DNA from: Gammaproteobacteria bacterium
GTDB lineage: Bacteria; Pseudomonadota; Gammaproteobacteria; Pseudomonadales; Halieaceae
Direction: 5' to 3'
Assembly: GCA_030426545.1 (NCBI GenBank)
Contig: JAUHYL010000001.1
Location: forward strand, 62,001-126,000
DNA length: 64,000 nucleotides
Positions 1-56,869 of this stretch are shown in pieces. The position numbers and the translations under genes were made by a program. Below the pieces are notes generated by a model, which saw only the letters and a list, made by a program, of their open reading frames with translations, had not been told where the DNA came from and searched no databases. Positions within the stretch are counted from its first letter, which is position 1. Each line of letters opens with the position of its first letter.

Positions 1-318
1 AAATCCCTGCAGGAAGCTGGCCAATTGCGCCCGACTGCCAAGCATGTCGCCGATACATACTGCCAGTGCCATCAGGCTCGCTGCCGAGCGAGCAGCAGAA
101 ACTGAGCCCAGCAACTTCTCGAAATACGTCAACGCCTGTTCGCTGAGCGTACGCTTCAGGGCTTCTACCCCTTCAAAGCGCTGGATGATCGCCGCCCGGG
201 AGATGTCCAACTCGCGCGCCAGCTCAGAGAGGGTGAACTGTTGATGACCACGCACCATGTACAAGTGCTGTGCAGTACTGAAAAGCGTTTCATCGGTAAC
301 CTGCTTGGGTCTCGCCAT
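1..318 (-). CDS. TetR/AcrR-family transcriptional regulator, truncated by the left window edge
   Basis: Manual reverse-strand translation from ATG at 318: MARPKQVTDETLFSTAQHLYMVRGHQQFTLSELARELDISRAAIIQRFEGVEALKRTLSEQ..., a TetR-like N-terminal HTH. Open to the edge, so missing from the ORF track. Confidence 0.75.
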   Translation of the reverse strand, partial: MARPKQVTDETLFSTAQHLYMVRGHQQFTLSELARELDISRAAIIQRFEGVEALKRTLSEQALTYFEKLLGSVSAARSAASLMALAVCIGDMLGSRAQLASFLQGF

Positions 319-592: not shown

Positions 593-2299
593 TTGAAGCA
601 CACGGTATGTACAATCACGAATTCGAGACCGCTTATCCAGGTGCGGTGCCTGGCCGTCCTGTTGGTGGTCACACTCGCCACGGCGCCTGAATCCCTGGCC
701 AGGGCAGAGCCTGAACTCAACAGCGCGGGCGGCCCACCAAAGGTGCGCAGGCTGACGGAAGCCCAGTACCGAGCAACAATTGCGGACATTTTTGGGCCCA
801 ACATTGCAGTGGTCGGCCGCTTCGAGCGCGCATTGCGCTCCGATGGCCTGATAGCGGTCGGCACGAGCGAGGCGGGCCTCTCCCCCTTCAGTATTGAGCA
901 GTACAACATCAGCGCCCGTAACATCGCCTCGGTGGTGATGAGTCAAGAGCGGCGCGACGCATTTCTATCCTGTCATCCCGCCGCGGCGGACACCTTCGAC
1001 AAGACATGCGCTCGTCGCTTTATCGGGGAATACGGGCTGCGCCTTTTTCGCCGTCCATTGAGCGACGCAGAAATTGATCTGTTCCTGTCCCTCGCAGAGG
1101 CTGGTCACGACAAACTGGGCAACTTCTACAGCGGGCTACAATTCGCACTTACCGGCATGCTGGTGGCGCCCGACTTCCTGCTCAGAATCGAGCGCTTCAT
1201 GCCGGATTCGGCGCGCCCCGGCAGCTTCCGTCTGGACAACTATTCCAGCGCGACGCGGCTAAGTTATTTCCTGACCGGCTCCGCGCCCGACGCCGAACTT
1301 CTCGCCGCGGCGGCGGCTGGCCAACTCTCCAATAATGTGGAGCTGGCGAAGCAGGTAGATCGCCTGATGGCCTCGCCCCGCTTCGAGACGGCCATACGCG
1401 ATTTTTTTGCGGACATGCTCTACTTCAATTTATTCGCAGACCTGGCGAAGGATTCGGAGATCTACCCCGCCTTCAACTCCGCTGTGGCCGCTGACTCACG
1501 AGAGCAGACGGTTCGCACCATTACCCATCACCTGCTCGAAAGCGGGGGTGACTACCGCGAGTTGTTCACCACGCGCAGCGCGCCACTCACGCGCTCGCTC
1601 GGTATCCTGTACCGCATGCCCGTCGCCACACGCCACGGCTGGAGCATGGGAGAGTTCTCCGAGTCCAGTGGCCGCGCGGGTATCCAGTCCCAGGTTAGCT
1701 TCCTCGCGCTGCACTCACACCCGGGCCGCTCCTCACCCACGCTTAGAGGCAAGGCGATCCGCGAAATCTTCCTCTGCCAACACGTGCCTGACCCTCCCGC
1801 CGACGTCGACTTCACCGGGATCAATGACATCGCCAACCCCGAACGTCCAACGGCGCGGGACAGGCTGGAGGCACATGGCACGAATCCAGCCTGCGTAGGC
1901 TGTCACACGCTGATGGACCCGCTGGGGCTAACTCTCGAAAACTTTGACGGACTGGGTGTGTTCCGCACGCGCGAAAACGGCGCGGAGATCAATGTCAGCG
2001 GCTCGCTGGACGGCACGGAGTTTGTTGCGGCGGCCGGGCTCGGCCAGGCACTATACGACTATCCCCAGACCACAAGCTGCCTGGTCGACAAACTCTACCG
2101 CTCCGCGGTCGGCGGGAGCATTTCTTCCTCGGAACGGCCTTTTTTTAAATATCTAAATCAAGTATTTGCCGACAACGGCTACCGCTTGCCAGAGCTGATC
2201 CGCACCATTGCAACCAGTCCTGGCTTTTACACCATCACGCCAGATCCCCAGCATCAGGAATTAACAAATGCTTATGTGGCGCCGGGAGATAGATCATGA
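593..2299 (+). CDS. DUF1592/DUF1588-type exported protein with CxxCH motif (planctomycete-type cytochrome-like)
   Basis: N-terminal hydrophobic segment, VRRLTEAQYRATIADIFGP (DUF1587-like), ACVGCHTLMDPLGLTLENFDGLG (DUF1588-like, CVGCH). TTG start, so the exact start is uncertain. Confidence 0.75.
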   Translation: MKHTVCTITNSRPLIQVRCLAVLLVVTLATAPESLARAEPELNSAGGPPKVRRLTEAQYRATIADIFGPNIAVVGRFERALRSDGLIAVGTSEAGLSPFSIEQYNISARNIASVVMSQERRDAFLSCHPAAADTFDKTCARRFIGEYGLRLFRRPLSDAEIDLFLSLAEAGHDKLGNFYSGLQFALTGMLVAPDFLLRIERFMPDSARPGSFRLDNYSSATRLSYFLTGSAPDAELLAAAAAGQLSNNVELAKQVDRLMASPRFETAIRDFFADMLYFNLFADLAKDSEIYPAFNSAVAADSREQTVRTITHHLLESGGDYRELFTTRSAPLTRSLGILYRMPVATRHGWSMGEFSESSGRAGIQSQVSFLALHSHPGRSSPTLRGKAIREIFLCQHVPDPPADVDFTGINDIANPERPTARDRLEAHGTNPACVGCHTLMDPLGLTLENFDGLGVFRTRENGAEINVSGSLDGTEFVAAAGLGQALYDYPQTTSCLVDKLYRSAVGGSISSSERPFFKYLNQVFADNGYRLPELIRTIATSPGFYTITPDPQHQELTNAYVAPGDRS

Positions 2300-3627
2300 A
2301 GAAATTTAATCGCAGGAGCATTCTCAAGGGATTACTCAATGGCTCGGCAGTTGGGGTTGCCCTGCCCGTCCTCGACATGTTCCTCGACGACAACGGCAAG
2401 GCCTTCGCCGCGACCGGGCAACGCATTCCGGTGCGCTTTGGCACATGGGTCTGGGGCTGCGGGCACATCCCTGAGCGTTGGATTCCCACCACCACCGGCT
2501 TTGACTACACCATGCCCGCGGACCTCGAGCCGATAGCACCCTACCGCGACAAGATCGCCCTGTTCAGTGGCTTTGACGTCAAGCTGGACGGAGTTCCAAA
2601 TAAGCCGCACATCACCGGTTGCCTCGGATTGCGGACAGGGATTCCAGTGCCCAGCGAGAAAGTCGAGGCTCCCACCCTCGATGTGTTGATCAGCGATGCC
2701 ATTGGCCAGTCCACACGCTTCCGCTCAATCGAAGTCAGCACCTCTGGCATCCAGCGCTCCTACTCGTTCCGCGCTGCCGGCTCTCCCAACCCCAGTGAGG
2801 TGTCGCCCCTAACACTGTACCAGCGCATCTTCGGCGACGGCTTCCAGGACCCGAATGCCACGACATTCACGCCCGATCCGGCCACGATGGTGCACAAGAG
2901 TGTTCTATCCGCCATAGCAGAGGAACGGCGACACCTGATGCGCCAGGTGGGCGCGGCGGACCGCAGGCGCCTGGACGAGTACTTCACGTCCATCCGCCAG
3001 CTCGAAAACCAACTTGCGCTACAGCTTCAGCCACCGGCCCCGGTAGAAAACTTCACCATGCCCGAACCGCCTCCGGAACTGGAGCTGGACTCTGAGATGG
3101 ATAACGTGTTGGTGACACACCGGCTCATGTCCGACCTGTTGGCGAAGGCGCTGCAGTGCAACCAGACCCACGTCATCAATGTGCTGCTGTCAGATACCAC
3201 GTCCAACCTGCGCCGCAGGGGGTCGACCACCACCCACCACACGCTGACCCACGAAGAGCCGGTCAATCCCGAACTGGGCTACCAGGAGCAGGTCGGTTGG
3301 TTTGCCACACAGAGCATGCTGGCCTGGCGCGATTTTCTCGATTCACTCGCCAAAATCCCCGAAGGGGACGGCACGTTGTTGGACAACTGCCTGATCCTTG
3401 CCCACTCGGACTGCTCCATAGCCAAGTCACACTCCGTGGAAGGTATCCCTACCATGGTGGCCGGTGGCGCAGGCGATCGCATTCGCACCGGCTACCACAT
3501 GGCCGGGCGGGCGGACCCTGTTTCCCGCATCGGCCTCACCATTCAGCAAGCAATGGGCCTGCCGGTTGAGCGCTGGGGCACCAATTCTATGGAGACTAAC
3601 CGCAATATTCCCGAGCTACTGACGTAG
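2296..3627 (+). CDS. DUF1552 domain-containing protein with Tat-like signal
   Basis: MKKFNRRSILKGLLNGSAVGVALPVLDMFLD (RR motif); 443 aa; ATGA overlap with the upstream DUF1592 gene; same length as and highly similar to the 60395-61726 product. Confidence 0.8.
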   Translation: MKKFNRRSILKGLLNGSAVGVALPVLDMFLDDNGKAFAATGQRIPVRFGTWVWGCGHIPERWIPTTTGFDYTMPADLEPIAPYRDKIALFSGFDVKLDGVPNKPHITGCLGLRTGIPVPSEKVEAPTLDVLISDAIGQSTRFRSIEVSTSGIQRSYSFRAAGSPNPSEVSPLTLYQRIFGDGFQDPNATTFTPDPATMVHKSVLSAIAEERRHLMRQVGAADRRRLDEYFTSIRQLENQLALQLQPPAPVENFTMPEPPPELELDSEMDNVLVTHRLMSDLLAKALQCNQTHVINVLLSDTTSNLRRRGSTTTHHTLTHEEPVNPELGYQEQVGWFATQSMLAWRDFLDSLAKIPEGDGTLLDNCLILAHSDCSIAKSHSVEGIPTMVAGGAGDRIRTGYHMAGRADPVSRIGLTIQQAMGLPVERWGTNSMETNRNIPELLT

Positions 3628-3675
3628 GGCCGACATTTCGGACTCACATTTTTCAATCACTACAGGATTTTATTT

Positions 3676-3993
3676 GTGGCACAGATTAATTTAACCGATA
3701 CGAATGGACGTAAGACAACGCTCAATTTCAATGAAGGCGGCACGCTAATGCAGACCATCACGGATGCAGGATTTGACGACTTGCTCGCAATTTGCGGCGG
3801 CATGTGCTCGTGTGCGACCTGCCACGTGTATATCCACGAAAGCCAACTGGCGGACCTACCGGACATGAACGCGGACGAAGCAGATCTGCTCGCCATGTCG
3901 GAGCATCGCGAGGACAGTTCCCGCCTCGCCTGCCAGCTGCGCATGAGCGCAGCACTTGACGGACTCAGGGTAACCATCGCCCCCAGCGAATAA
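3676..3993 (+). CDS. [2Fe-2S] ferredoxin (P450/adrenodoxin-type)
   Basis: [13 protein letters not shown] Cys cluster and later LACQL; GTG start; directly upstream of a P450. Confidence 0.88.
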   Translation: MAQINLTDTNGRKTTLNFNEGGTLMQTITDAGFDDLLAICGGMCSCATCHVYIHESQLADLPDMNADEADLLAMSEHREDSSRLACQLRMSAALDGLRVTIAPSE

Positions 3994-4040: not shown

Positions 4041-5330
4041 ATGCAAATGACACAACCAATTAAGGAACGCGACTATTTCACCGACCCCGGGGTACTGCGG
4101 GACCCTTACCAGTACTTTGAGGAGATGCGCCCCCGCGGGCCGGTCTGTCAGCTGGAGACGCACGACTGCCTGCTGGTTACCGGCTTCGAGGAGTGTGTCG
4201 AGGTGCTGCGCAACCCTGCGGACTTCTCCTCCTTGAATTCACTCGCCAGTTCGGCCTTCCCGCTGCCCTTCACCCCCGAAGGTTCCGATATCAGCGCGCA
4301 ACTTGAGGCGCACCGTGACAAATACGTCGGGGGCGACATGGTAGTCACCTACGATGACGGGCACCACACAAACGTGCGCGCACTGATCAGCCTCATGTTC
4401 ACGCCTTCGCGACTGAAGGCCAATGCGGCGTTCATGCGCGAGTACGCCGGCGAGTTGGCGTCCAAAGCGATCGCCGATGGCAAGGTCGAACTGGTACACA
4501 CCATCGCCACCCCCTACGTGACCATGGTCATTGCCGACCTCATGGGCGTACCCCCCGAGGACCGCACACTCTTCGAGGCGAAAATTGCAGAGGGTCAGAC
4601 CGTGGGCAGCATAAATGACCCGGACAGCCCTACCGACATGTCGGTAGTCTACTTCATCGCCGAGTTCATGGGGCGGTACCTCCAGGAACGCGCCGCAAAC
4701 CCCGGGGAAGACCTGCTCTCGGAATTGGCGACGGCGAGCTACCCGGACGGGTCGAAGCCCGACCTGATCGAGCTGATCAGCCTGTCGACCTTCATGTTCG
4801 CTGCGGGCCAGGACACCAGCGCGAAGCTGCTCGCTAATGCGATGCGCTATGTCGTGGATGAGCCCGACCTGCAACAACAGCTGCGCGAAGACCGCTCACT
4901 CATTCCATGGATGCTGGAAGAGGTACTGCGCCTGGAGGGGTCTTCGAAGGCCACCCACCGCGTTGCCCGCCGAGATACGAAGATTGGCGATATCGCCGTT
5001 CCCGCGGGCAAGCAGGTTATTGTCGCCCTGGCCGCTGCGGGCCGCGACCCGAAGCGTTGGGGCGACGATGCCAACGAGTTCAAACTCAAGCGCCCCGGAA
5101 TCAAGCAGCACGTCAGCTTCGGCCGCGGCTCCCACACGTGCGCGGGTGCCCCACTGGCTCGTGCCGAGGTCGCGACTATGTTCAATGCCTTCCTGGACCA
5201 GACGGACAACATAGAGATCTCCGCGGCGCATCATGGCGCGAGGGGCGCACGCAATTACGAGTTTGAACCGTCCTTCATCATCCGCGGCATGGACAACCTG
5301 CACCTGGATCTGCAGGCGAAAACGAAATGA
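4041..5330 (+). CDS. Cytochrome P450
   Basis: I-helix FAAGQDTS, EEVLRLE (ExxR), heme loop FGRGSHTCAGAPLAR. Confidence 0.95.
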   Translation: MQMTQPIKERDYFTDPGVLRDPYQYFEEMRPRGPVCQLETHDCLLVTGFEECVEVLRNPADFSSLNSLASSAFPLPFTPEGSDISAQLEAHRDKYVGGDMVVTYDDGHHTNVRALISLMFTPSRLKANAAFMREYAGELASKAIADGKVELVHTIATPYVTMVIADLMGVPPEDRTLFEAKIAEGQTVGSINDPDSPTDMSVVYFIAEFMGRYLQERAANPGEDLLSELATASYPDGSKPDLIELISLSTFMFAAGQDTSAKLLANAMRYVVDEPDLQQQLREDRSLIPWMLEEVLRLEGSSKATHRVARRDTKIGDIAVPAGKQVIVALAAAGRDPKRWGDDANEFKLKRPGIKQHVSFGRGSHTCAGAPLARAEVATMFNAFLDQTDNIEISAAHHGARGARNYEFEPSFIIRGMDNLHLDLQAKTK

Positions 5331-6145
5331 CAGCCATCGCTGATGTCTCGGACCGCAGCATCGACCAGCTCCTCTCCCTCGCCGGGCGTACCTGCGTCAT
5401 CACTGGGGGCGCTCGCGGGCTGGGCCGGGCGATTGCCAGCCGGCTAATGGAGGCCGGCGCGAATGCACTCATCGCAGACCTGGAGGCGGCGACAGGCGAA
5501 ACCGCCGCCGTGGAGTTGACCAGCCAATTTCAAGGCCGCTGCCTCTTCAGCCGCACTGACGTCACCGATACCACGGCCGTTGAGGCCCTCGCGAACCTAG
5601 CCGTTGAGAGTTTTGGCGGCATCGACGTCTGGGTGAATAACGCCGGCGTATTCCCGTTCCGGTCACTGGACGAAATGGACGCCGACACCTGGGACACAGT
5701 TATGGCGGTGAATACCCGCGGGGTCATGCTCGGCGCGCGCGAGGCGGCACGACACATGACGGCGGCTGGCCGCGGTGGCACTATCATCAATATCGCCTCG
5801 ACAGCCGGCTTTCGGGGCGTGTCGCCCGGTCTGTCTGCTTACGTAGCCTCCAAGCACGCCGTGCGCGGATTGACCCGCCAGCTCGCTTTGGAACTTGCCC
5901 CCCACGCGATCCGTGTCCTGGGCATCGCACCCACCTACTGCGTTACGGAAGGCAACCTACTAGCAGCGCAGGAAATGGGTGGCACCGAGGTCACCGGAGC
6001 GGAGATCGCAGCGATGGTGTCGACCCCGCTGGGGCGGGTGGGCGTACCGGACGACGTGGCCCGCGCCGCGCTGTTCTGCGCCTCGGACATGGCCATGTTC
6101 ATGACGGGCAGCACACTGCTCGTCGATGCAGCGGAAACCGCTTGA
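5327..6145 (+). CDS. Short-chain dehydrogenase/reductase
   Basis: TGGARGLG cofactor motif, NNAG, YVASKHA; ATGA overlap with the P450 gene. Confidence 0.92.
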   Translation: MTAIADVSDRSIDQLLSLAGRTCVITGGARGLGRAIASRLMEAGANALIADLEAATGETAAVELTSQFQGRCLFSRTDVTDTTAVEALANLAVESFGGIDVWVNNAGVFPFRSLDEMDADTWDTVMAVNTRGVMLGAREAARHMTAAGRGGTIINIASTAGFRGVSPGLSAYVASKHAVRGLTRQLALELAPHAIRVLGIAPTYCVTEGNLLAAQEMGGTEVTGAEIAAMVSTPLGRVGVPDDVARAALFCASDMAMFMTGSTLLVDAAETA

Positions 6146-39425: not shown

Positions 39426-40805
39426 TTGCACCAGGTCACCGCGATCCTCGATGTCGGTAAGACAAACGTAAAACTGTGCCTGCTCGACGAGTCGGGTAAA
39501 ACGATCTCGTCCCAGTCACGTCCCAATGATGTGACGCAGTCTGGCCCTTATCCGCACTTTACCATCGAGGCGATATGGTCCTGGTTGCTCGAGTGTCTGG
39601 CGGCGGCTGCGGTCGAGTTCGACATCAGGGCGATTAACATCAGTACGCACGGTGCCTGTGCGGTGCTGGTCGATGGCGACGGTGCATTGGCGCTTCCGGT
39701 CCTGGACTACGAATACGATCAGGTCGAGTCCTGCGCCGAACACTACAGCGCCGTCAGGCCGGCTTTCGAGCATTCCTTTTCTCCCGGTCTTCCCGCGGGC
39801 CTGAATCTGGGCCGCCAGCTGTTCTGGCTCAAGCGGCAATTTCCCGCTGAATTCGCGCAAGTCGTACAGGTATTCATGTACCCGCAGTACTGGGCGTGGC
39901 GCTTGTCCGGCGTGGCGGCGACCGAGGCGACCTCGCTGGGTTGCCACACGGACCTGTGGTACCCCGACGAGGACGACTACTCCCCCCTGGTGGATCAACT
40001 CGATATCAGGCGCAGGCTACCCCCGTTGGTGCCGGCGACGGCCGCGCTCGGCAGTGTGACGGATGAGGTAGTAACAAGCACGGGACTGCCGCCGGACTGT
40101 CTCGTGTATGCCGGCGTGCACGATTCCAACGCTAGTTTCGCGCGGCACCTGGCGGCCGGACTAGCGGAGCCCTTCACCGCGGTATCGACCGGTACCTGGG
40201 TGATCGCCATGGCGGCCGGGAGTCCGCTCGCCGTGCTCGATGAGCGTAGCGATACGCTCGCGAACGTCAGCGTCCAGGGCAAACCGCTGGCCTGTGCCCG
40301 GTTTATGGGCGGGCGGGAGTTCGAGGAAATCTGCCGCCTGACGAACGCGCGACTGGACGATGACTGCGAGGACAAAGATATTGCGGTAATTGTCAGCGAC
40401 CGGGGTTTAGTCCTGCCAGCATTCGCGAGCGCCGGAGGCCCCTTTGCCCGCAGGCCAGGGGAACTGCCGCGGGACGTTGCCAATGGTAAGGCGCTTGCCA
40501 CTCTGTACCTGGCGTTGATGATCGATTACGAACTGGACCTCCTGCAGGCGCAGGGAGACATCGTGTTCGGCAGCGCCGCCAGCAAGAACCCGCTGCTGTG
40601 CCGATTGCTGGCGCAACTGCGCCCTGGGCAGCGGGTACTACAGTCGGGCGATGACGCGAGCACGGTACGCGGGGCGTGGTGTCTCACCCGGCCCGGGTAT
40701 CCAAACGTGCCGGGTATGCACAAGTTCGGAACCGCGCTGCCGACAGGCCTTGTTGGATTGGATGCTTACCGGGATGAGTGGCGGATGAAGGCCTTACTCA
40801 AGTGA
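39426..40805 (+). CDS. rhaK: FGGY-family carbohydrate kinase, probable L-rhamnulokinase
   Basis: AILDVGKTNVKLCLLDESG, STHGACAVLVDGDG, ATEATSLGCHTDLWYP, YAGVHDSNASFARHL, STGTWVIAMA; TTG start. Confidence 0.85.
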   Translation: MHQVTAILDVGKTNVKLCLLDESGKTISSQSRPNDVTQSGPYPHFTIEAIWSWLLECLAAAAVEFDIRAINISTHGACAVLVDGDGALALPVLDYEYDQVESCAEHYSAVRPAFEHSFSPGLPAGLNLGRQLFWLKRQFPAEFAQVVQVFMYPQYWAWRLSGVAATEATSLGCHTDLWYPDEDDYSPLVDQLDIRRRLPPLVPATAALGSVTDEVVTSTGLPPDCLVYAGVHDSNASFARHLAAGLAEPFTAVSTGTWVIAMAAGSPLAVLDERSDTLANVSVQGKPLACARFMGGREFEEICRLTNARLDDDCEDKDIAVIVSDRGLVLPAFASAGGPFARRPGELPRDVANGKALATLYLALMIDYELDLLQAQGDIVFGSAASKNPLLCRLLAQLRPGQRVLQSGDDASTVRGAWCLTRPGYPNVPGMHKFGTALPTGLVGLDAYRDEWRMKALLK

Positions 40806-40906
40806 GATACCGGCAGCTCCCCGCATTGTGAAGAGCCGTTCCAACGCCATCAGGAAAACCGTGTTATCTGGCCTTTCCTTGACAGGGTTGCGCTGCAATG
40901 GGCGTC

Positions 40907-41677
40907 TCAGCTTATCGAGAACCCGCCGTCCACGGCGACTGCCTGATTGGTAATGCGGCTCGCCGCTGGCGAGGCAAAGAAGAGTACCGCCGCAGCGATG
41001 TCCCGGGGTTCGCACAAGCCGAGCGGCACCGGTCGCGTGGCCGGACCCTCCGGCGCGGGTCCGGTTGCATTGATGGCGCCGGGCGTGGCCACCCCGCCGG
41101 GCAACACAGTGTTAACGGTGATGCCGTGCTCAGCCAATTCGAACGCACTGGCCTGGCTGAGCCCTTGCAGCGCCCCCTTGGACCCGGCATATGCCGCGAG
41201 CCCCTTGACGATACTGCCGCGCAGCGCGGCCGAAATGATATTAACGACGCGCCCACCCTCACCCGCCGCGACCATGGCACGGGCGATTTCTCGCGTCATG
41301 AGGAAGGCGCCGCGCGCGTTGACATTGTGCATGCGATCCCAATCGTCAGCGGAGCATTCGAGAAATGCCTGGCGATCCTGCAGCCCCGCATTGTTCACCA
41401 GCGCCCAGGGCGTACCGTGTTCCCCAAGCACTTGTGCACAGGCGGCAACGACAGAGGATTCATTTGCGAGATCAACAACAACTGACTCCGCCCGTTTGCC
41501 TTCGTCTCGCAGTGCACCAGCGAGTTCTCCAGCGGCGACCGCATTCACGTCGGCGATAATGACCTGCGCTCCCGCGTCCGCGAAGGCGCGCACAATACCT
41601 TCGCCTATGCCGCTCGCGCCGCCCGTTACCAGGGCCAACTTATTCTCTAGGCTCAACAAACCTGCAGCGGTGTTCAC
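40907..41677 (-). CDS. Short-chain dehydrogenase/reductase
   Basis: TGGASGIGEGIV, NNAG, YAGSKGA, VDGGFSIS. Confidence 0.92.
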   Translation of the reverse strand: MNTAAGLLSLENKLALVTGGASGIGEGIVRAFADAGAQVIIADVNAVAAGELAGALRDEGKRAESVVVDLANESSVVAACAQVLGEHGTPWALVNNAGLQDRQAFLECSADDWDRMHNVNARGAFLMTREIARAMVAAGEGGRVVNIISAALRGSIVKGLAAYAGSKGALQGLSQASAFELAEHGITVNTVLPGGVATPGAINATGPAPEGPATRPVPLGLCEPRDIAAAVLFFASPAASRITNQAVAVDGGFSIS

Positions 41678-41730
41678 GGTTGCAACTCTCCTCGCGTCCG
41701 GGTATTCACGTTACATCCTGCTATTATCGC

Positions 41731-41750
41731 GTAACGCGCCAACGCATTAC
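41731..41750. promoter_or_regulatory. Inverted repeat GTAACGC-N6-GCATTAC, candidate operator
   Basis: Read directly; one mismatch in 7-bp arms, flanked by TATTAT (41722-41727) and ATAATA (41753-41758), between divergent SDR genes. Confidence 0.4.
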
Positions 41751-41773
41751 CAATAATATTAAAGGCAATCACT

Positions 41774-42586
41774 ATGGCTAGCTTCGCTCAATGCTACGGC
41801 CCCTGGGCCGTCATACTCGGCGCGTCCGACGGTACCGGCGCGGCCTTCGCGCGCGCCATTGCGGCGGCGGGCATACATTGCATACTCGTCGCGCGCCGGG
41901 AGCAACCGCTGGCCGACCTGGCCGCGGAGCTTACCCGGGAGCACAGCGTCGAGTGCATTACCGCCCCGGTAGACCTAGCCGACGCAGACGCATCCGTTCA
42001 GGTTATAGCCGCTGCCAGCGACCGCGAGGTGGGCCTGCTGGTTACGAACGCCGGCGCCGACCCCCACGGCGCCCTGTTTCTCGAACAAACGAGCGCGGCC
42101 TGGGAGTCGCTGCTCGCAATCAACATCACCAACACCCTGCGCTGCTGCCATCACTTCGGCGGACTGATGCGCGCGCGGCGTCGCGGCGGACTGCTGCTTG
42201 TGGGTTCGGGCGCCTGCCGCGGCGGCGCCGCTCGCCTGGCGACCTATTCCGGCGCCAAGGCTTTTGTGCGCTGCTTCGCGGAATCGCTGTGGCAGGAAAT
42301 GAAAGACGACAACGTACACGTGCTACACCTCGAACTCACCACGACTGACACACCCTCGTTCCGCAAACTACTCGCCGAGAAAGGACGCAAGCCGCTGCGG
42401 GGAATGACCAGTCCCGAGGATGTCGCACGCGTCGGCCTGGCGCGCCTGGCGCGCGGACCAAACTACTTCTGGGGCCAGAAACTCGGCCTGCGCGCGAGCT
42501 TGCGCCGCACACGCGTGCGACTGGTCACACACCTCAGCGGTAAATTCATTCTCGAGCCCGCGCAGGCAGATGGGCAACGCCTGTGA
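41774..42586 (+). CDS. Short-chain dehydrogenase/reductase
   Basis: ILGASDGTGAAFARAI, TNAGADPHG, YSGAKAFVRCFAESLW. Confidence 0.88.
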   Translation: MASFAQCYGPWAVILGASDGTGAAFARAIAAAGIHCILVARREQPLADLAAELTREHSVECITAPVDLADADASVQVIAAASDREVGLLVTNAGADPHGALFLEQTSAAWESLLAINITNTLRCCHHFGGLMRARRRGGLLLVGSGACRGGAARLATYSGAKAFVRCFAESLWQEMKDDNVHVLHLELTTTDTPSFRKLLAEKGRKPLRGMTSPEDVARVGLARLARGPNYFWGQKLGLRASLRRTRVRLVTHLSGKFILEPAQADGQRL

Positions 42587-43524
42587 CAACATCGAAAACG
42601 CACTGGAGTGAGTACTGGCGACAGGGCAACCTGACCTCCCTCCCCCGCGGCTTCGCGAACAACTATGACGGGGAGTTTGTCAGCTTCTGGGAGGCAGAAT
42701 TCGCCCGCCTGCAGGCAGGAAGCCGCGTGCTGGACGTATGCTCCGGAAACGGATCGATCGCATTACTGGCGCAGGACTATTCCTCGCGCGAGCATCTCAA
42801 TTTTCAAGTAAAGGCCTCCGATGCCGCGCAGACCGATGTATCCGCGTTGATCCGCAGCCGCCCGCACTTCAGGGAACACATAGAGGCAATCGAATTCATA
42901 CCCGACAGTCGAGTAGAGATTCTACAGGAAGCGGCGGCGTCAGTTGACCTGGTATCGAGCCAGTTCGGCATTGAGTACACAGACTGGCGGGTGTCGGCGG
43001 CGAACATCCACCGCATGTTGAAACCGGGCGGGCACTTCGCAATGGTTTGCCACAGTTGCGACTCGAAGATCCTGCGCGAGATGGAACTGCAACAGGCCCA
43101 GTATGAGCAGATTGCGCACATCGCACTTTTTTCAGCGGTGCATACGGATGTGAAAGCGCCAGGTTTTGCCGCTGATTTTCCGCAAAAGCTTGAGGCCACC
43201 CTGGACGAACTTTACCAACTGTTCCAGAAAAGGCGCGCCTCACAACTCCTGTCGACCGCGGGTAAAAAACTCGAGCAAATCCGCTCCCTGGCGCTGCGGC
43301 AGCCCGACGACGGGCTGCGCGAATTCGTCCATTTCAGGGACGCAATCAACACAAGCCGCGGCGTGGCGGCAGACTTGTTAGCTGTGAATCACGCGCTGCG
43401 TGGTTCCCCACATTGGCACGATGCATTTACTGATGCGGGGCTGGAGCTGCTCGACTCGGGCACGATACGCTATCGTACGGGCGAGATCGCGGGCTCGAGC
43501 TACCGGTTCATCAAACCCGGCTGA
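42583..43524 (+). CDS. Class I SAM-dependent methyltransferase
   Basis: RVLDVCSGNGSIALLA, VDLVSSQFGIEY, LKPGGHFAMVCH; GTG start overlapping the upstream stop. Confidence 0.88.
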   Translation: MTTSKTHWSEYWRQGNLTSLPRGFANNYDGEFVSFWEAEFARLQAGSRVLDVCSGNGSIALLAQDYSSREHLNFQVKASDAAQTDVSALIRSRPHFREHIEAIEFIPDSRVEILQEAAASVDLVSSQFGIEYTDWRVSAANIHRMLKPGGHFAMVCHSCDSKILREMELQQAQYEQIAHIALFSAVHTDVKAPGFAADFPQKLEATLDELYQLFQKRRASQLLSTAGKKLEQIRSLALRQPDDGLREFVHFRDAINTSRGVAADLLAVNHALRGSPHWHDAFTDAGLELLDSGTIRYRTGEIAGSSYRFIKPG

Positions 43525-43593
43525 GCGCCATCACACCGAGAGATTTGCACGTGCTATCGAATCTGATGTCCGAAGCGCTTTCGGACTTCGTGG

Positions 43594-43884
43594 CTAGAGT
43601 CCGTCAACAATAAACATGTCGTAGTCGGCAGCCTGCTGCCGAAAGGGTACGGCGTCCTGGTATTCGGGGTTGTCATACCACGCCCTGGCTTCCTCCGCAG
43701 TGGGAAACTCCAGCAGGATCACGCCGTCTGGCGGGGCGCCTTCGAGTGCTTGTACCTCGCCGTAAACAACACGCGGGACCATATCGAAACTGGCCTTGAT
43801 CTCCCGCGAGCGGCGCTGGTATTCGGCCATCGCATCCGGGTTTCTCACGGCTTCCTTGCGCAGGGCAATGAGGTAGGCAGGCAT
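43594..43884 (-). CDS. DUF1330 domain-containing protein
   Basis: MPAYLIALRKEAVRNPDAMAEYQRR...EGAPPDGVILLEFPTAEEARAWYDNPEYQDAVPFRQQAADYDMFIVDGL. Confidence 0.85.
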   Translation of the reverse strand: MPAYLIALRKEAVRNPDAMAEYQRRSREIKASFDMVPRVVYGEVQALEGAPPDGVILLEFPTAEEARAWYDNPEYQDAVPFRQQAADYDMFIVDGL

Positions 43885-44044
43885 GGCGGTTCCTCGCTTA
43901 GCAATGATCGGGAAGGTCGACACCCTTCTGTAGCCAACAAATTCTTGGATGAGGGGCGTGAGATAAAACAACAGGCCAGAGGCCGGTCGCATTCCTCCAC
44001 TCAGCCTGGTTTAAACTTGTGCAGCAAGGGTGTAGAATTCCCCT

Positions 44045-44066
44045 ATATAAACATCAGTGTTGATTA
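44045..44066. promoter_or_regulatory. 22-bp dyad ATATAAACATCAGTGTTGATTA (site 3 of 3)
   Basis: Right half AGTGTTGATTA is the exact reverse complement of the left half of site 1 (TAATCAACACT); left half degenerate; abuts ATG at 44068. Confidence 0.55.
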
Positions 44067-44067
44067 T

Positions 44068-44934
44068 ATGCAATTAGGTATCGCTTACCCCACCCGTGAA
44101 GTCGAAGCCTCTGCAGGGTCCGTGCGCAAACTTATCAGAGCGGCGGAGGAACTTGGCTACCAGCACCTGCTAGCCTACGACCATGTCGTGAAAACCCCCC
44201 TCGAAGGCCGCGAACCGAAACTAACTGGACCCTACACCGAAAAGGATGCCTTCCAGGACCCTCTCGTATTCTTCGCGTTTGCGGCAGCGGTAACCGACAC
44301 GCTGGAGTTCGCCACCGGCGTGCTCTGCCTGCCACAGCGCCAGACTGCGCTCGTGGCACAACAGGCTGCTGATGTTGATCTACTATCGGGCGAACGCCTG
44401 CGGCTGGGGGTGGGCATCGGCTGGAATTATGCGGAGTTCGAGGCGCTGGGCGCCGAGTTTCGCGCCCGCGGCAAACGAACCGACGAGCAGGTCGAACTCC
44501 TGCGCCAGTTGTGGACCGGTGACGTACTGGATTACACGGGGCAGTTTCACCGCATAGATCGTGGCTGCATCAATCCCGCGCCAAGGCGGCAGATTCCCCT
44601 CTGGCTGGGCGGCTACACCGAGCCGGGCTTCGTGCGCGGTGCGCGCCTGGGCGACGGTTTTATTTTCGCCGCCACCGGTGACAACGCGGTAGAAGGATGG
44701 CAACGCGTCAGGTTCCACCTCGAGGCGCTGAGCCGCGACGTCGACGCGTACGGGCGGGAGTTGATCACACTGTTTGCCCGCGACGCGCAGGAGTCCGTCG
44801 ACCACCTGCGCCAGTTCCGTGACGTCGGCGGCACCCACGGCTGTTTTCACTCGATGGACAAGGGTCTCGGCAACAACATCGACGCACATATCGACTACAT
44901 CGCCGAGACCCGCCGACTCTGGGGCGACGGCTGA
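44068..44934 (+). CDS. LLM-class flavin-dependent oxidoreductase
   Basis: MQLGIAYPTREVEASAGSVRKLIRAAEELGYQHLLAYDHVV, ATGVLCLPQRQTALVAQQAADVDLLSGERLRLGVGIGWNYAEFEALG. ORF extends upstream to 43750. Confidence 0.9.
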   Translation: MQLGIAYPTREVEASAGSVRKLIRAAEELGYQHLLAYDHVVKTPLEGREPKLTGPYTEKDAFQDPLVFFAFAAAVTDTLEFATGVLCLPQRQTALVAQQAADVDLLSGERLRLGVGIGWNYAEFEALGAEFRARGKRTDEQVELLRQLWTGDVLDYTGQFHRIDRGCINPAPRRQIPLWLGGYTEPGFVRGARLGDGFIFAATGDNAVEGWQRVRFHLEALSRDVDAYGRELITLFARDAQESVDHLRQFRDVGGTHGCFHSMDKGLGNNIDAHIDYIAETRRLWGDG

Positions 44935-44983
44935 GACAAACCAGCCACAGTTCGAACCGGGCCACTGCAATAGGACTACAACT

Positions 44984-46495
44984 ATGCTTAGCAAAACACT
45001 GACGAGAATTGCCGCACCGCTTGCAATAGCATTGGCGCTGTCGCTTGGCGCCGCCTCAGGCCACACAGAGACTGCCGCTGCAAGCATAAAGGGCTCGGTC
45101 ACTGTCGATTTCAGCCAGTCCCGTGGCGAGCGACTCGCGGTGGAGAGGATCAATAATCTGACCCGTGCGCATCGCTATGCTGAGCAACGTGACGCCGATG
45201 TTTCCTTCTATAACGAACAGGGGCTGCACGGTGAAATCTACCGGGTATGGGTTGATGCCCACAAACTGCGCGACCCGGAAAACCCGCAGGACGGCTACGA
45301 TTACAGCAGCGTCGTCGACTACCTGTCAGATGCCAGCCGCCTGTCCGACTACCTGCTGGTCGTAATGGATACGCGCGTGGAGGTGCGCGATCACGATTAC
45401 ACCCCCGCGCAGATCAAGCCGGTGGTCAAGCGCATCCTGACCGACCTGAAAATCCGCTTCCCCCAGATCAGGTACATCGAAACCTTTAACGAACCGGACC
45501 ACAACATGGTCACGGCGGTGAAAGCGGAAGACCTGTACGACTATTACGTGCCCTATTACGAGGCGGTCAACGAGATTAACGATGAACTGGAGCCACTGGT
45601 TCCGCTGGAAGTGGGCGGACCATCCCTGACCACGTACAGCGAAGAATGGATGAACGCGTTCCTGGACGACTACGCGGCAGATCCCGCGCCTGGCAAAAAG
45701 CTCGATTTCATCTCCTGGCATGCCTACGGCAAGTTCACCCAGGGCAGTCCGTACACCGAGGGGCCGCGGGCGTATCACTTCTACAAGGGTGACCCCAGCG
45801 AAGTCGCCAATGAGCGCGATCTGCTGGAGGCCGCATTGCGCAGCCGCGGTATCGACGACGACATTCCCGGCTTCATCACCGAAACGGGAATTTATCCCGG
45901 CCCCTCCTTTGACCACAAGGACGACCCGCACGCTGACTATGTCATCCAGGCAGCCGGCGTGCCCTCGCTCCTGTACTGGTACATGGAGCAGGACCATATC
46001 GTGCCGTTCAACTGGGTGGTACGCCACAAGTCGGAGAAGCGCAAGGATCAGTTGATTACCCACGTCAAGGATAAACCAATGCCAACCGGCATATTCTCTC
46101 CCTACGGCAATTCGATGGTGATGATGTCGACGCTAAAGGATGAGCGCGTGGCAGCCGAATCATCAACCCTGGAAAACGGTCGTGGAGTCTATGCCATCGC
46201 CACGCGCGACAATACGGGCGTGGCAGTTATGCTGTGGAACTACCAGAGTACGGACAGCCACACGCATGTCATGACCATCGACATGAAAAAACTACCGAAG
46301 CACCTGCGCGGCAAAAAGGTCCGCCAGCGCCAGTACCGGATTGATGCCGAGACGAGCAACTACTGGGCGGACCCTGAAACCGCTGATCTGCAAATGGTAT
46401 CTGAGACGATTATTGAACCGGGTAAGCACTACAGCCTGCCGGTTACTTTGACTGCCAATGCGCTGGAGCTTGTTTTGCTTGAGCCACTCAAGTAG
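44984..46495 (+). CDS. Exported clan GH-A glycoside hydrolase-like protein (GH39-like)
   Basis: Signal peptide; IRYIETFNEPDHN (acid/base NEP) and FITETGIYPGP (candidate nucleophile Glu); DFISWHAYG. Confidence 0.65.
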   Translation: MLSKTLTRIAAPLAIALALSLGAASGHTETAAASIKGSVTVDFSQSRGERLAVERINNLTRAHRYAEQRDADVSFYNEQGLHGEIYRVWVDAHKLRDPENPQDGYDYSSVVDYLSDASRLSDYLLVVMDTRVEVRDHDYTPAQIKPVVKRILTDLKIRFPQIRYIETFNEPDHNMVTAVKAEDLYDYYVPYYEAVNEINDELEPLVPLEVGGPSLTTYSEEWMNAFLDDYAADPAPGKKLDFISWHAYGKFTQGSPYTEGPRAYHFYKGDPSEVANERDLLEAALRSRGIDDDIPGFITETGIYPGPSFDHKDDPHADYVIQAAGVPSLLYWYMEQDHIVPFNWVVRHKSEKRKDQLITHVKDKPMPTGIFSPYGNSMVMMSTLKDERVAAESSTLENGRGVYAIATRDNTGVAVMLWNYQSTDSHTHVMTIDMKKLPKHLRGKKVRQRQYRIDAETSNYWADPETADLQMVSETIIEPGKHYSLPVTLTANALELVLLEPLK

Positions 46496-46512
46496 CAGGC
46501 TCGCCGCCTGCT
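46494..46512 (+). terminator. GC-rich hairpin AGCAGGC-TCGCC-GCCTGCT over the stop codon, no U-tract
   Basis: Read directly; 7-bp perfect stem, 5-nt loop. Confidence 0.25.
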
Positions 46513-46552
46513 GTCATCGCGTCAACTCGATCCTGAAGCTCAAAGGCCGACT

Positions 46553-47314
46553 ATGACAACCAAGATCAATTTTGCGTTTCTGCATGGCGGAGGACAAGGC
46601 AGCTGGGTTTGGCAGGAAACTATTGTCCAGCTGCGCAAACGGGCCGATGGCAATTTGGGAAGCGTTATCGCATTGGATATTCCAGGCTGCGGCCATAAAC
46701 GCGACAGGGACAGCAATGACCTGGATTTTGGCGCGATAGTAACCGAGCTGATGAGCGACCTGGCCAATGCTGAAACGCAGGATGTGGTGCTGGTTGGCCA
46801 CTCACAGGCGGGAACTGTAATGCCGTTCATGGCCGCAAGAAATCCCGACCTGTTTCGTCACCTGGTGTACATCACGTGCTCAATACCTCTGCCCGGGCAA
46901 ACGCTACTCGGAATGATCGGAGATCAGGTACACGGCAGTAACGACGAACAGGTTGGATGGCCCATTGATCCGCAAACAACCAGTCTGCAGGAACGCTTTG
47001 AAATTATGTTTTGCAATGACATGAATGAACAGCAGGGCCGTGACTTCATGGGCAAGCTGGGCAATGACCAGTGGCCGCAATCTACTTATACAGAAACGAA
47101 CTGGCAGTTCGAACCGCAGGAATCATTGCCTTCTACCTATGTCGTGTGCCAGCAGGACAATATCCTGCCAGTCTCCTGGCAGGAAAAATTCGCCAGGCGT
47201 TTTAATGTGCGAGAAATACTCCGGGTCGATGCCGGACACCAGGTGATGATTACCGAGCCCAACGCCATCGCCGAACTCCTGCTTGCGCAGATGATGTTTC
47301 TTTCCGGCCAATGA
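46553..47314 (+). CDS. Alpha/beta hydrolase
   Basis: FLHGGGQGSWVWQE, VLVGHSQAGTVMPFMA (GHSxxG), DAGHQVMITEP. Confidence 0.88.
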   Translation: MTTKINFAFLHGGGQGSWVWQETIVQLRKRADGNLGSVIALDIPGCGHKRDRDSNDLDFGAIVTELMSDLANAETQDVVLVGHSQAGTVMPFMAARNPDLFRHLVYITCSIPLPGQTLLGMIGDQVHGSNDEQVGWPIDPQTTSLQERFEIMFCNDMNEQQGRDFMGKLGNDQWPQSTYTETNWQFEPQESLPSTYVVCQQDNILPVSWQEKFARRFNVREILRVDAGHQVMITEPNAIAELLLAQMMFLSGQ

Positions 47315-47341
47315 GTCGGCAACGATAAAGGGAAAAGAACG

Positions 47342-48358
47342 ATGCTGAAAATCGAACGCAGGCGCTTTAATCAGATGGTAATGGCGGGCGCGCTGTCTGC
47401 ACTGCCGGCAGCGCCCGTACTCGCTGCCCTTACTTTGAAAGACGGGGAGGCTGGATTCCCTCTATACGACATCGCCTTCTCCAGTTGGTGCTTCCACATG
47501 CCGCTGTGGCGCGGTGAGATGAAGGCGCATGACTTGCCGGGTATCGCGCGTGACGTGGGCGTTGATGCGCTGGAATGGACAGCGAAGACGCTCCGCGATC
47601 TGCGTGGCGGCCGGGGTTTAATGTTCGAGCCGCCTCCAGATCGCTTTTTTCACACGCTGCGCGACGCGGCTGATGACGCCGGTATACAGAGCAAGGTGAT
47701 GAACTTGGGAGGCCCCTTTTTCCTCGCGAGTGTGGACAAGGCCACCCAGAAAAAGGCTTTGGATTACATCAAGCCTTATATTGAACCGACCCAGATTCTA
47801 GGCAGCAAAATTCTGCGCACGGAGCTTTACTACGATGGCGGACGCAGCCCGGGCTGGCAGCAGGAGGCCAGAAAACATGCGGTAGAGGGTATACGGCGCT
47901 TACTGGATATGACCGCCGATTCAGGCCTGGCGATCCACGTTGAAAACCACCACGGTATATCTTCCCACCCGGACTGGCTGGCAAGCCTTGTCAATACGGT
48001 AGACAGCCCCAGGTTTGCGCTGACCGTGGATACCAATAATTTCCGCATCGACCAGGATAACCCCTATGACCAGGATTCTTCATCACTACCCGCGTACGTG
48101 AACAGGTATGAAGGCCTGCAGACACTGATGCCATTTGCGAGGTGGGTCAGCGCCAAATGCTATGCTTTTGACAACACCGGTTACGAGCTTTCCATGGATT
48201 ATCCGCGCATCCTGGACATCATCCTTGCCAGTGATTACCGCGGGTACATCAGCGTGGAATACGAAGGCGCAGGCGATCCCCTGGACGGGGTGCGGCAGGG
48301 CGTGGAGATGTTCAGGGCCTTGAGATCACATTTTGCGACCATGACTAAGGCTCAGTAG
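47342..48358 (+). CDS. Exported sugar phosphate isomerase/epimerase-like TIM-barrel protein
   Basis: KIERRRFNQMVMAGALSALPAAPVLA (Tat/Sec-like signal), LAIHVENHHGISSHPDWLASLVNTVDSPRFALTVDTNNF, YISVEYEGAGDPLDGVRQG. Confidence 0.85.
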   Translation: MLKIERRRFNQMVMAGALSALPAAPVLAALTLKDGEAGFPLYDIAFSSWCFHMPLWRGEMKAHDLPGIARDVGVDALEWTAKTLRDLRGGRGLMFEPPPDRFFHTLRDAADDAGIQSKVMNLGGPFFLASVDKATQKKALDYIKPYIEPTQILGSKILRTELYYDGGRSPGWQQEARKHAVEGIRRLLDMTADSGLAIHVENHHGISSHPDWLASLVNTVDSPRFALTVDTNNFRIDQDNPYDQDSSSLPAYVNRYEGLQTLMPFARWVSAKCYAFDNTGYELSMDYPRILDIILASDYRGYISVEYEGAGDPLDGVRQGVEMFRALRSHFATMTKAQ

Positions 48359-48748: not shown

Positions 48749-49954
48749 CTATCCAACAAACACGGGCATCGTGTCCCACCCTCGCGTCGACGAGGAGGAA
48801 GACAATTGCGCGTTGTCGGTATCGACTGTCCAGTCCGGGAAGCGCTTGAGAATTTCTTCCATTACAACGCGGCCTTCTACCCGCGCCAGCGCCATGCCCA
48901 GGCAGGAGTGGATACCGCGGCCGAAGGTCATATGTGGTGGGTCCCTGCGATGGATGTTGAACAGTTCCGGATCGGTGAACCGCGACTCGTCGCGGTTGGC
49001 CGAGGCGATCAGGTTCAGCATCACGCTGCCGGCCGGCACGACCTGGCCCAGCACTTCCACATCTTTTGCCACGTAACGTGCTACCGAGGGTCCGGGCGGC
49101 TCAAAGCGCAGGATCTCCTCTATGGCGGCGGGCACCAGAGAGCGGTCAGCGGCGATCTCGCGGCGCTGGTCCGGGTGTTCGCCCAGTATCTTGCCCATCC
49201 AGCCAATTAACTTGGAGGTAGTCTCGTTGCCCGCCCCGGCCAGCAGCATGACGAAAATCAGCACCTCCTCCTTGGTCAGCTTGCGTACCGTGCCGGTGGC
49301 GTCCTTGAACTCGGTGTTGAGGAGCTCCGTCATCAGGTCGTCTGAGGGGGTTTTCATGCGCCAATCGATGTACTCTTCGTAGTTTTCACCCGTGAGGTTC
49401 GCCTGCTCCAACTCCATAGGCTTGCCTTCTTCTGTGCGCAGTGAGGCCTCGACCTGGTCGCGCACCGCATCGCGGTCCTCGTCGGGTATGCCGAGCAACA
49501 TGCCGATCACGCCGCCCGGTAACTGTCCGCCGAGATCGGCTATGAAGTCGATGCGGTCATTTCCTGCAATGGGATCGAGACAGCGCACACAATAGTCTCG
49601 AATCATGCCTTCAAGCGCGTTCATACGCTTGGGCGTGAATACGCGCATAACCACGGCGCGGTAGGCCGTATGCTCCGGCGGATCCTCCCAGATAAACATG
49701 CCCTTGGGCACTTCCATGTCCTCGCGCATGAACTCCATAATGTCACTGCGGCCCGAGATGAACGTCTCGTGATTGCCGAGGCAGGCCTCCACGTCGGCAA
49801 ACCGGCTCACTGCGTAAAAGTCGTACTCCGCGTTGTAGTAAAGAGGCGCCTCCTCACGCAGTCGCTTGAAGGTCGGGTACGGGTCCTTGCCCAGGTCAGG
49901 ACGGTACGGGTCCCAGTAAACAACGTCGCCGCCAGTTGCTGCTGATGTGCTCAT
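48749..49954 (-). CDS. Cytochrome P450
   Basis: [25 protein letters not shown], heme loop [15 protein letters not shown]; start set at MSTSAA. Confidence 0.95.
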
Positions 49955-49977
49955 GTCATACTGCTCGCAGATTTTAA

Positions 49978-50003
49978 ATTGGTGTCGCGACATTGTCACC
50001 AAT
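49978..50003. promoter_or_regulatory. Inverted repeat ATTGGTG-N12-CACCAAT containing the palindrome TGTCGCGACA (49983-49992)
   Basis: Read directly; in the short divergent P450/DapB-like intergenic region. Confidence 0.5.
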
Positions 50004-51146: not shown

Positions 51147-52859
51147 CTAGATCACGCCCTCGCCGATTTGCTGCACCGCATAATCGCAGGCCCGGGCAGT
51201 AAACGCCATGTAGGTGAGTGAAGGGTTAACGCACGACGCCGACGTCATAAAGGAACCGTCGGTCACGAACAGGTTGGGCACGTCGTGGGCCTGGTTGTAA
51301 CGATTTAGCACCGACTCGCCCGGGTCGTCGCCCATGCGCGCGGTGCCCATCTCGTGTATGCCTGCGCCCGGCACTGACAGCGTTTGCGCATCGCCAATCG
51401 GCATGGTGAAGGCAGCGCCGGCCGCCTCGAGAATGCGCAGCCCCTCCTGCTGGATATCCTTGCCCATGGCGCGCTCGTTGTCACTCCACTCGAAATCAAA
51501 GGCCACCTGCGGAATCCCGAAACGGTCTTTCTTGCTCTTGCTGAGATACAGGTGATTGCGCTTGCGGGGAAGGCACTCGCCGAAACCGCCCATGTAAAAC
51601 GTCCAGGTTGGTGGAATTGCGCTGAGTTGGCTCTTCAGTGCCCCGCCGAAACCCTTCGCATTGAGTTGGCCCATCCAGTTGGAGCTGTTGATCATGGTCT
51701 GGAAGCCGTAACCGCGGATAAAATCCGTGTCGTCGTCCTGTTTGCCGACATTGCGAAAGCGTGGAACATAAAGCCCGGTCGGTCGATTGCCATAGAAATA
51801 GCTGTCACTGTGTTCACTGAACATACCAACCGCGCCAACACCGAGAAAATGATCCATCAGGTAACGGCCCAACACCCCGCTGCGATTGGCGAGCCCGTTG
51901 GGAAACGCCGCGCTGGAGGAATTTAACAGCAGCTGTGTACTGCCAACGGTCGACGCACAAAGAAAATAGACCCGCGCCCTGTAGGCGCGGCGCGCGTTCG
52001 TCTGCGCATCGATCACGTGGATCGCACTGATGCGACCGGTGCCCTCGTCGTACTGCAGCCGTTCCACCACGCTGTCGGGCTTGAGCGTCATCTTGCCGGT
52101 GGCGCGCGCGGCGGGCAGTGTGGAACTCTGTGAGCTGAAGTAACTGCCCGTGGAACAGCCATTTTCACAGGGGCCGCAGTAATGGCACGCAGCGCGGCCA
52201 GGCAGGTCTTCCGTCAGGATCGCCGTGCGCGCATTGGTCAGTGTGATATCAGGAGCGCTTTTGCGCAGGCGCTGCTGAATCGTCTTCTCTATCGCGAACC
52301 ATGGCATTGGTTTCTGGAATTCGCCGTCGGGCAGTTGCGCCAACCCTTCCTTGCGGCCGTTCACGCCAATGAATTTTTCGACACGGCTATACCAAGGTGC
52401 AACGTCGTCGTAGCCCACTGGCCAGGGAATGCCGTGGCCGTCGGTCGCATTGGCCTTAAAATCCTCGGGGCTGAAGCGATAGGTCTGCCGCCCCCACAGC
52501 AGCGACCGACCGCCGACAACGCCGCTGCGAAACCAGTCAAAGGGCTTCCCTTCCTCGGTCGCGTAGGGATTCTCCCTGTCATTGTTCCAGAAGTGCCGGT
52601 TGGCGGTGCTGAACGCGTAGACTTTTCTCTGTACCGGGTAGTCTCGCTCCTCCAACGCGCGGTCTGGCTTGCCGTGAAAAGGCTGTTTGTAGCCCGGTGC
52701 GTGCTCGCCGAGGTAACCGCTGCCGTGCTGGAGGTCTTTGCCGCGCTCCAGCACCAGCACCTTCAGGCCCTTTTCAGTGAGTTCCTTTGCAGCCCAGCCC
52801 CCTGTGATACCGGAGCCGACCACTATGGCGTCAAAATCGTATTTGTGTTCAGTTTTCAT
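51147..52859 (-). CDS. GMC-family FAD oxidoreductase (glucoside 3-dehydrogenase / gluconate 2-dehydrogenase large-subunit-like)
   Basis: DFDAIVVGSGITGGWAAKELTEKGLKVLVLERG, GGRSLLWGRQTYRFSPEDF, CHYCGPCENGCSTG Cys cluster, MGTARMGDDPGESVLNRYNQAHDVPNLFVTDGSFM. Confidence 0.92.
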   Translation of the reverse strand: MKTEHKYDFDAIVVGSGITGGWAAKELTEKGLKVLVLERGKDLQHGSGYLGEHAPGYKQPFHGKPDRALEERDYPVQRKVYAFSTANRHFWNNDRENPYATEEGKPFDWFRSGVVGGRSLLWGRQTYRFSPEDFKANATDGHGIPWPVGYDDVAPWYSRVEKFIGVNGRKEGLAQLPDGEFQKPMPWFAIEKTIQQRLRKSAPDITLTNARTAILTEDLPGRAACHYCGPCENGCSTGSYFSSQSSTLPAARATGKMTLKPDSVVERLQYDEGTGRISAIHVIDAQTNARRAYRARVYFLCASTVGSTQLLLNSSSAAFPNGLANRSGVLGRYLMDHFLGVGAVGMFSEHSDSYFYGNRPTGLYVPRFRNVGKQDDDTDFIRGYGFQTMINSSNWMGQLNAKGFGGALKSQLSAIPPTWTFYMGGFGECLPRKRNHLYLSKSKKDRFGIPQVAFDFEWSDNERAMGKDIQQEGLRILEAAGAAFTMPIGDAQTLSVPGAGIHEMGTARMGDDPGESVLNRYNQAHDVPNLFVTDGSFMTSASCVNPSLTYMAFTARACDYAVQQIGEGVI

Positions 52860-52880: not shown

Positions 52881-53513
52881 TTAGCGATAAAAAGAAAATG
52901 GCGCCCAGGTCGTGTCTCCGGGGGCGCGCGCGTATTCGCCATTGAATTTCATGGGCATCGGGTTGTAGCGCAAGACCTGCTTCATCCCGGTCTCGGAGGT
53001 GAAGAAGCCCCATATAGTGAGTTCCTTTAGCTGGCAGATGAACGGCGCGTCGCTGATAAACGCGCGACGGACATTACCCGGCTGGTACCAGGGGGAATCT
53101 TCCGCGGCGGCTTCCATGCGCTCAAGCACAGCGACCTGCCCGGCGCTATCCAGTTCATCGTAGGGCTTGCCGAATTCGGCCGGTATCCGCGCAGAAAGAT
53201 CTTCCAGGCCCGCCATAAAGATGGCGCGCTCCTGCTCGTTAAACCAATCCGCCACCATCAGTTCAATGAAATCCGGTACCCCGGCATCGATAGCGCCGGG
53301 TGTGTCGGTGCGCGGGATAATCGCCTCGGCGACAGCCGCGACTATGCGCCGTTGTGCTTCGTTAAGCAGGTTCGCCGGCCGGCTGGCATAGTCATCGGCC
53401 GTTGCGAGGTATTGCTGCTGCTCTTCATTCAGCGCAAATGCGGGTGCTTGTATAACGGTGCCGCTGACCAGCAGCGCCGCACATTCCAGAAATTCCCGTC
53501 TATTCATTTCCAC
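52881..53513 (-). CDS. Gluconate 2-dehydrogenase subunit 3 family protein (Tat-exported small subunit)
   Basis: MEMNRREFLECAALLVSGTVIQ (RR motif), VAAVAEAIIPRTDTPGAIDAGVPDFIELMVADW. Confidence 0.88.
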   Translation of the reverse strand: MEMNRREFLECAALLVSGTVIQAPAFALNEEQQQYLATADDYASRPANLLNEAQRRIVAAVAEAIIPRTDTPGAIDAGVPDFIELMVADWFNEQERAIFMAGLEDLSARIPAEFGKPYDELDSAGQVAVLERMEAAAEDSPWYQPGNVRRAFISDAPFICQLKELTIWGFFTSETGMKQVLRYNPMPMKFNGEYARAPGDTTWAPFSFYR

Positions 53514-56843: not shown

Positions 56844-56869
56844 GTTTTCCCGCTTCCTCCAGTGCACGC

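Follow-up and report, generated by a model that had tools for sequence, protein, structure and literature searches.

The PSD/PSCyt3 protein and the DUF1552 protein encoded at the left end of the window (the whole stretch of 64,000 nucleotides analysed here) belong, together with an unnamed third protein, to a conserved exported three-part unit shared by many marine and soil bacteria. The complete minimal unit can now be named: three genes in one operon, as for example in NOR5-3, Mangrovimicrobium, Steroidobacter and Sphingobium. A preliminary description of the same DNA had proposed an exported redox module of two proteins, one bearing a c-type haem and the other a Tat-exported cofactor enzyme, tied to the chemistry of a cytochrome P450 in the same operon. 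The two proteins do recur in linkage, but the third exported protein, which is nearly obligate, had been missed.

Gene content of the copies

The first gene of copy 1 (593-2299, plus strand; the TTG at 593 is the first possible, putative start) encodes 568 amino acids with the domain order PSD3-PSD5-PSD4-PSCyt3-PSD2, equivalent to DUF1587/1595/1592/1588/1585, all above the Pfam cut-offs. This exported, predicted mono-haem c protein, called PSD below, carries a CVGCH haem c attachment motif at residues 434-438 (1892-1906, plus strand). It is followed on the same strand by the gene for the DUF1552 protein (2296-3627, 443 amino acids) and, according to Pfam, by three local accessories: a [2Fe-2S] ferredoxin of the Fer2 type (3676-3993), the P450 (4041-5330) and an SDR dehydrogenase (5327-6145). 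There is a 4-bp overlap between the PSD and DUF1552 genes and another between those for P450 and SDR, and the remaining gaps are about 47-48 bp, so that the earlier notion of one tight operon with these five genes is a fair one, borne out by open reading frames and Pfam matches, even though P450 and SDR lie beyond position 3993, the end given earlier. Two genes for the third protein, transcribed divergently from copy 1, lie upstream of it just outside the window (L004:7117-8436 and L004:8455-9693). A gene that looks by inspection like a TetR-like regulator (1-318, minus strand) separates them from copy 1, and a similar regulator adjoins the three genes in loci L042 and L057.

The second copy, noted earlier for its CKGCH motif, is real (60395-63531, minus strand). 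Its operon, all on the minus strand, extends from the third partner to a GMC oxidoreductase gene at 51147. The C-terminal part of the partner occupies 63431-64000, the whole gene (L005:4432-5700, minus strand) crossing the window edge. Then come the genes for PSD (61723-63531, CKGCH at 62119-62133), DUF1552 (60395-61726), a GH106 alpha-L-rhamnosidase-like protein (56870-60391), a secreted-type protein that has a PKD domain and weakly matches alpha/beta-hydrolases (54711-57011), a ThuA-family protein (53543-54697), a gluconate 2-dehydrogenase subunit 3 family protein (52881-53513) and the GMC oxidoreductase itself (51147-52859), all assigned by Pfam apart from the partner. Because the operon encodes GH106, ThuA, GMC and gluconate 2-dehydrogenase subunit 3 family proteins, it is plausible that copy 2 acts on its substrate before uptake. 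Between the two copies, at 39426-48358, the window contains genes for an FGGY kinase, a GH39-like hydrolase and a TIM-barrel protein that resembles xylose isomerase and may have a Tat signal, which suggests a sugar or glycoside catabolic region. A third PSD/DUF1552 pair is found on another contig (C123) of the same genome, and the partner gene of this copy is L006:10155-11312.

The third exported protein

The third partner belongs to an unnamed exported family of about 400 amino acids with the motif GIDNQxxRxxGC. It adjoins every PSD/DUF1552 copy in the genome, and a profile search of the genome returned exactly four partner genes. None of 59 members matches a Pfam or NCBIfam family, and the profile of the family found chance CheY matches and no relative in the PDB.

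The same three-gene arrangement is seen in loci of related genomes. Each of the 43 loci flanked on both sides by 6 kb or more of sequence has the partner; they are a biased sample drawn from 79 loci of named genomes that make up the best-scoring part of the family. Where each gene occurs once (55 loci), all three lie on one strand, ordered either partner-PSD-DUF1552 (30 loci) or PSD-DUF1552-partner (25 loci), and the gap between PSD and DUF1552 is at most 50 bp in 50 of the 55. In these single-copy loci the three proteins show strongly correlated pairwise distances (Mantel r 0.81-0.91, with no correction for species phylogeny), and the third partner co-evolves with the pair.

Among 118 related genomes, 27 contain both partner and DUF1552, one the partner alone, three DUF1552 alone and 87 neither (Fisher p 3.5e-22, genomes being treated as independent). 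The sole partner-only genome (G097, contig C22:16242-17073) has no DUF1552, and its partner gene is a broken remnant with three stop codons. As for the genomes with DUF1552 alone, the match in G075 is weak, and those in G001 (locus L069) and G017 (best match, locus L036) are of a longer, PVC-like type. These two genomes are of the same genus; their PSD proteins measure about 940-960 amino acids, their DUF1552 proteins are divergent and the third partner is missing, and the PSD protein of L036 carries an N-terminal CVKCH. In a sparse class-wide sample of 292 genomes, the partner was detected only in the genome to which the window belongs.

PSD as a probable haem c protein

The CxxCH motif is kept in all of 65 PSD homologues and in none of 24 DUF1800 proteins (the large proteins with which DUF1501 is paired in these genomes), which rules out that it occurs by chance. 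The protein combines this motif with an export signal (judged by sequence and pattern), and the genome encodes CcmF as well as TatC. Judging from the motif, binding of haem c is probable; a disulfide or zinc site at CxxCH, the alternative raised in the preliminary description, is possible. Since H428 is invariant (65/65) and H376 nearly so (62/65), and since no methionine except the start is invariant in the 65 homologues, the alignment suggests that the haem is five-coordinate or has His/His instead of His/Met ligation. Four further cysteines are invariant in PSD proteins and could form disulfides, which would leave the CxxCH pair free for haem.

The structure model is of high quality (pLDDT 92.3, pTM 0.89), and Foldseek found no matching fold for it in the PDB (best E 1.6), so that PSD, as modelled, matches neither a classical cytochrome c domain nor another known cytochrome c fold. 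Sequence searches of the PDB with single proteins and with profiles returned no relatives either. Alignments of the PSD profile by hhalign covered one column or the C-terminus only and were discarded, and some PSD proteins show weak DUF1800 matches.

The DUF1552 protein

DUF1552 (PF07586, now named HXXSHH) matches above the cut-off and begins with the twin-arginine motif NRRSILK, in which both arginines, R6 and R7 (2311-2316, plus strand), are invariant in 59 of 59 homologues. The 28 matches of its model (pLDDT 88.1) in the PDB at E <= 0.001 belong without exception to the sulfatase/alkaline phosphatase/LtaS superfamily. The best one, 1p49, has an E-value of 3.8e-7 and a probability of 1.00, with a TM of about 0.37. 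Fold is what DUF1552 shares with this superfamily, from which it differs in its conserved residues and by identities of 8-14%. Sequence profiles do not reveal the similarity: hhalign stayed below 8% (7% against DUF1501 and 4% against sulfatase profiles, neither significant), compared with 60% for DUF1501 against a sulfatase profile, and a profile search of the PDB found no relative. All 59 homologues share seven residues (H105, D129, H315, H319, D363, H379 and H401), and 58 of the 59 also have E321. Such a set is what one would look for in a metal site, although a one-to-one assignment of the ligands is not possible.

A Tat-exported enzyme with a Mo, FeS or flavin cofactor, as had been envisaged, finds no support in an alkaline phosphatase/sulfatase-type fold, and this candidate was rejected. 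The modelled fold speaks instead for a metal-dependent enzyme, and DUF1552 is probably the metal-dependent catalytic subunit of the unit. Export by Tat would fit metal loading ahead of export.

Neighbouring genes

Several exported or electron-carrying proteins recur next to the three genes. Secreted-repeat genes of the Lipoprotein_15 type (PF03640) adjoin them in 53 of the 79 loci, where they often separate DUF1552 from the partner (L049:10616-12322 is an example of such a gene); none was seen beside the copies in the window. A trihaem cytochrome c adjoins the three genes in 12 loci of the related-genome set and 18 of the 79-locus set, all 18 of the latter proteins having three CxxCH motifs, and a HiPIP does so in seven loci of each set. 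TonB receptors are further recurrent neighbours. GH106, ThuA, GMC and gluconate 2-dehydrogenase subunit 3 genes accompany several loci, mostly in the window's own family, and a Pfam tally of 98 further neighbours gave a mixed picture with no dominant substrate class. Trihaem cytochromes c are the kind of subunit used by dehydrogenases of the GMC/gluconate 2-dehydrogenase type. Whereas this subunit neighbours the three genes in many loci, the stretch examined contains no GMC subunit in most of them.

A model for the three-part unit

Together, our data suggest a model in which the three proteins form an extracytoplasmic redox module, with DUF1552 as catalytic and PSD as electron-transferring haem c component, that has been reused in different catabolic clusters; we regard the chances for and against it as evenly balanced. 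PSD would be a mono-haem c-type protein with a fold not represented in the PDB, DUF1552 a Tat-exported, metal-dependent catalytic subunit with the alkaline phosphatase fold, and the third partner a Sec-exported protein practically always encoded with the other two. They would cooperate on an organic substrate in the periplasm or anchored to the membrane, and electrons would leave through the PSD haem to the trihaem cytochrome c, the HiPIP and perhaps the Lipoprotein_15 proteins encoded nearby. Copy 2, in its cluster with GH106, ThuA and GMC, might oxidise glycosides, and copy 1 would be the same module placed upstream of a cytoplasmic ferredoxin-P450-SDR set. The export motifs, the invariance of CxxCH, the DUF1552 fold, the linkage and co-evolution of the three genes and their linkage to electron carriers are well supported by sequences and models; haem binding, contacts between the proteins, catalysis by DUF1552, the direction of electron flow and the nature of the substrate are inferred. 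The earlier idea of an exported redox module is thus retained in part: export signals, the invariant CxxCH, CcmF and TatC, and the recurrent trihaem cytochrome c and HiPIP all speak for it, but DUF1552 is not a typical redox-cofactor enzyme. Two more points weigh against the model, namely that pairs of DUF1501 and DUF1800 do without CxxCH and that the fold matches of DUF1552 are of low TM.

The strongest rival takes the fold at face value. As members of the alkaline phosphatase superfamily mainly catalyse hydrolysis, DUF1552 might perform no redox chemistry at all and act as a metal-dependent esterase, of the sulfatase, phosphatase or a similar type, on esters of sugars or other organic compounds, with the PSD haem protein serving for binding, sensing or structure and not for electron transfer. 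The model of DUF1552 matches only hydrolases and their relatives, and sulfatase genes often adjoin PSCyt genes in Verrucomicrobia, according to He et al. (2017, PMC5615132). We nevertheless consider a pure hydrolase rather unlikely, as it would have no need of a CxxCH kept in 65/65 homologues, and as trihaem cytochrome c and HiPIP recur beside the unit. Sulfatases typically have an Asp-Asp pair in the first strand, and this pair is missing from DUF1552.

A second rival reverses the direction of electron flow. By published domain annotation, the PSD region corresponds to the CAZy domain X132 of Cbp2D from Cellvibrio japonicus and of TERTU_2913 and TERTU_3803 from Teredinibacter turnerae, a domain with no characterised homologue (PMC10916295). 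Cbp2D is important for growth on cellulose (PMC12542752). Strains lacking cbp2D do poorly on cellulose, and the X183 haem domain of Cbp2D can reduce LPMOs (PMC8981238). By analogy with what has been proposed for Cbp2D and LPMOs, the PSD haem might pass electrons outwards to an enzyme that uses oxygen, instead of collecting them from the substrate. This seems quite improbable, given that related X183 domains failed to activate their cognate LPMO (PMC10916295) and that neither LPMOs nor other exported oxygenases were among the families recurring beside the three genes. The X132 proteins do share with PSD the DUF1587-headed region, a single CxxCH, secretion and a link to redox chemistry. They differ in that X132 forms part of large secreted proteins that also contain CBM, FN3 and X183 haem domains, while PSD stands alone and is paired with DUF1552.

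A bolder version of the redox module is that the unit represents a new kind of extracytoplasmic oxidoreductase, in which a metalloprotein of the alkaline phosphatase fold, a haem c protein of new fold and a third subunit attack sugars or other oxygen-rich organic compounds oxidatively and pass the electrons to trihaem cytochrome c or HiPIP. We think this unlikely, but if it were true, the X132 proteins required for the use of cellulose and the many PSCyt proteins found in Planctomycetes would rely on the same chemistry.

Relation to known systems

PSCyt/PSD proteins are common in Planctomycetes and Verrucomicrobia, and marine Proteobacteria have them too. The gene pair of PSD/DUF1552 type and a role in carbohydrate use have been noted before: in the available sections of He et al. 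(2017, PMC5615132), PSCyt2 and PSCyt3 genes usually adjoin two different unknown gene families, a carbohydrate role is proposed, and DUF1501 and DUF1552 occur as terms. The Pfam domains of those PSCyt3/PSD proteins are the same as here, and the same sections describe neither a third partner nor a fold or conservation analysis of the pair. PVC-type PSCyt3/PSD proteins carry extra domains, unlike the protein studied here. What is new is the near-obligate third protein, which we did not find described, as well as the fold class of DUF1552 and the absence of a known fold for PSD. Our literature search found no haem, metal or redox measurement on PSD, DUF1552 or partner proteins and no PSCyt/PSD member with a fully known reaction. 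With the three-gene unit and these results on fold at hand, function becomes directly testable by joint expression of three proteins, not one or two.

Pairs of DUF1501 and DUF1800, whose operons have been noted (PMC5122149), resemble the PSD/DUF1552 pair in that a Tat-type protein adjoins a large protein in related genomes. DUF1800 proteins lack the CxxCH, unlike PSD, and these pairs look like distant analogues. An adjacent DUF1800-DUF1501 pair in the same genome (G000, contig C63:8950-11893) is a possible haem-free analogue.

The P450 of copy 1

P450 and ferredoxin genes lie beside the pair in 2 of about 110 loci, namely in the window and in the orthologous locus L057 of the same genus (86% identity for the P450 and 70% for the ferredoxin), and they are missing from the closely related L042. 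The P450 link is therefore local, the P450 is no recurrent partner of the three genes, and a generic tie of PSD and DUF1552 to P450 chemistry, as claimed earlier, was rejected. The P450 and the ferredoxin of copy 1 both appear to be cytoplasmic (no export signal was seen in the ferredoxin) and would therefore not be expected to exchange electrons with the exported pair. That the pair serves the P450 system of its own operon is thus highly unlikely, in spite of the tight gene order shared by the window and L057, since the P450 and ferredoxin have no export signal and their genes adjoin the pair in none of the other loci examined. A second P450 is encoded at 48749-50002 (minus strand), about 1.1 kb past the end of the copy 2 operon, with an opposite-strand gene in between.
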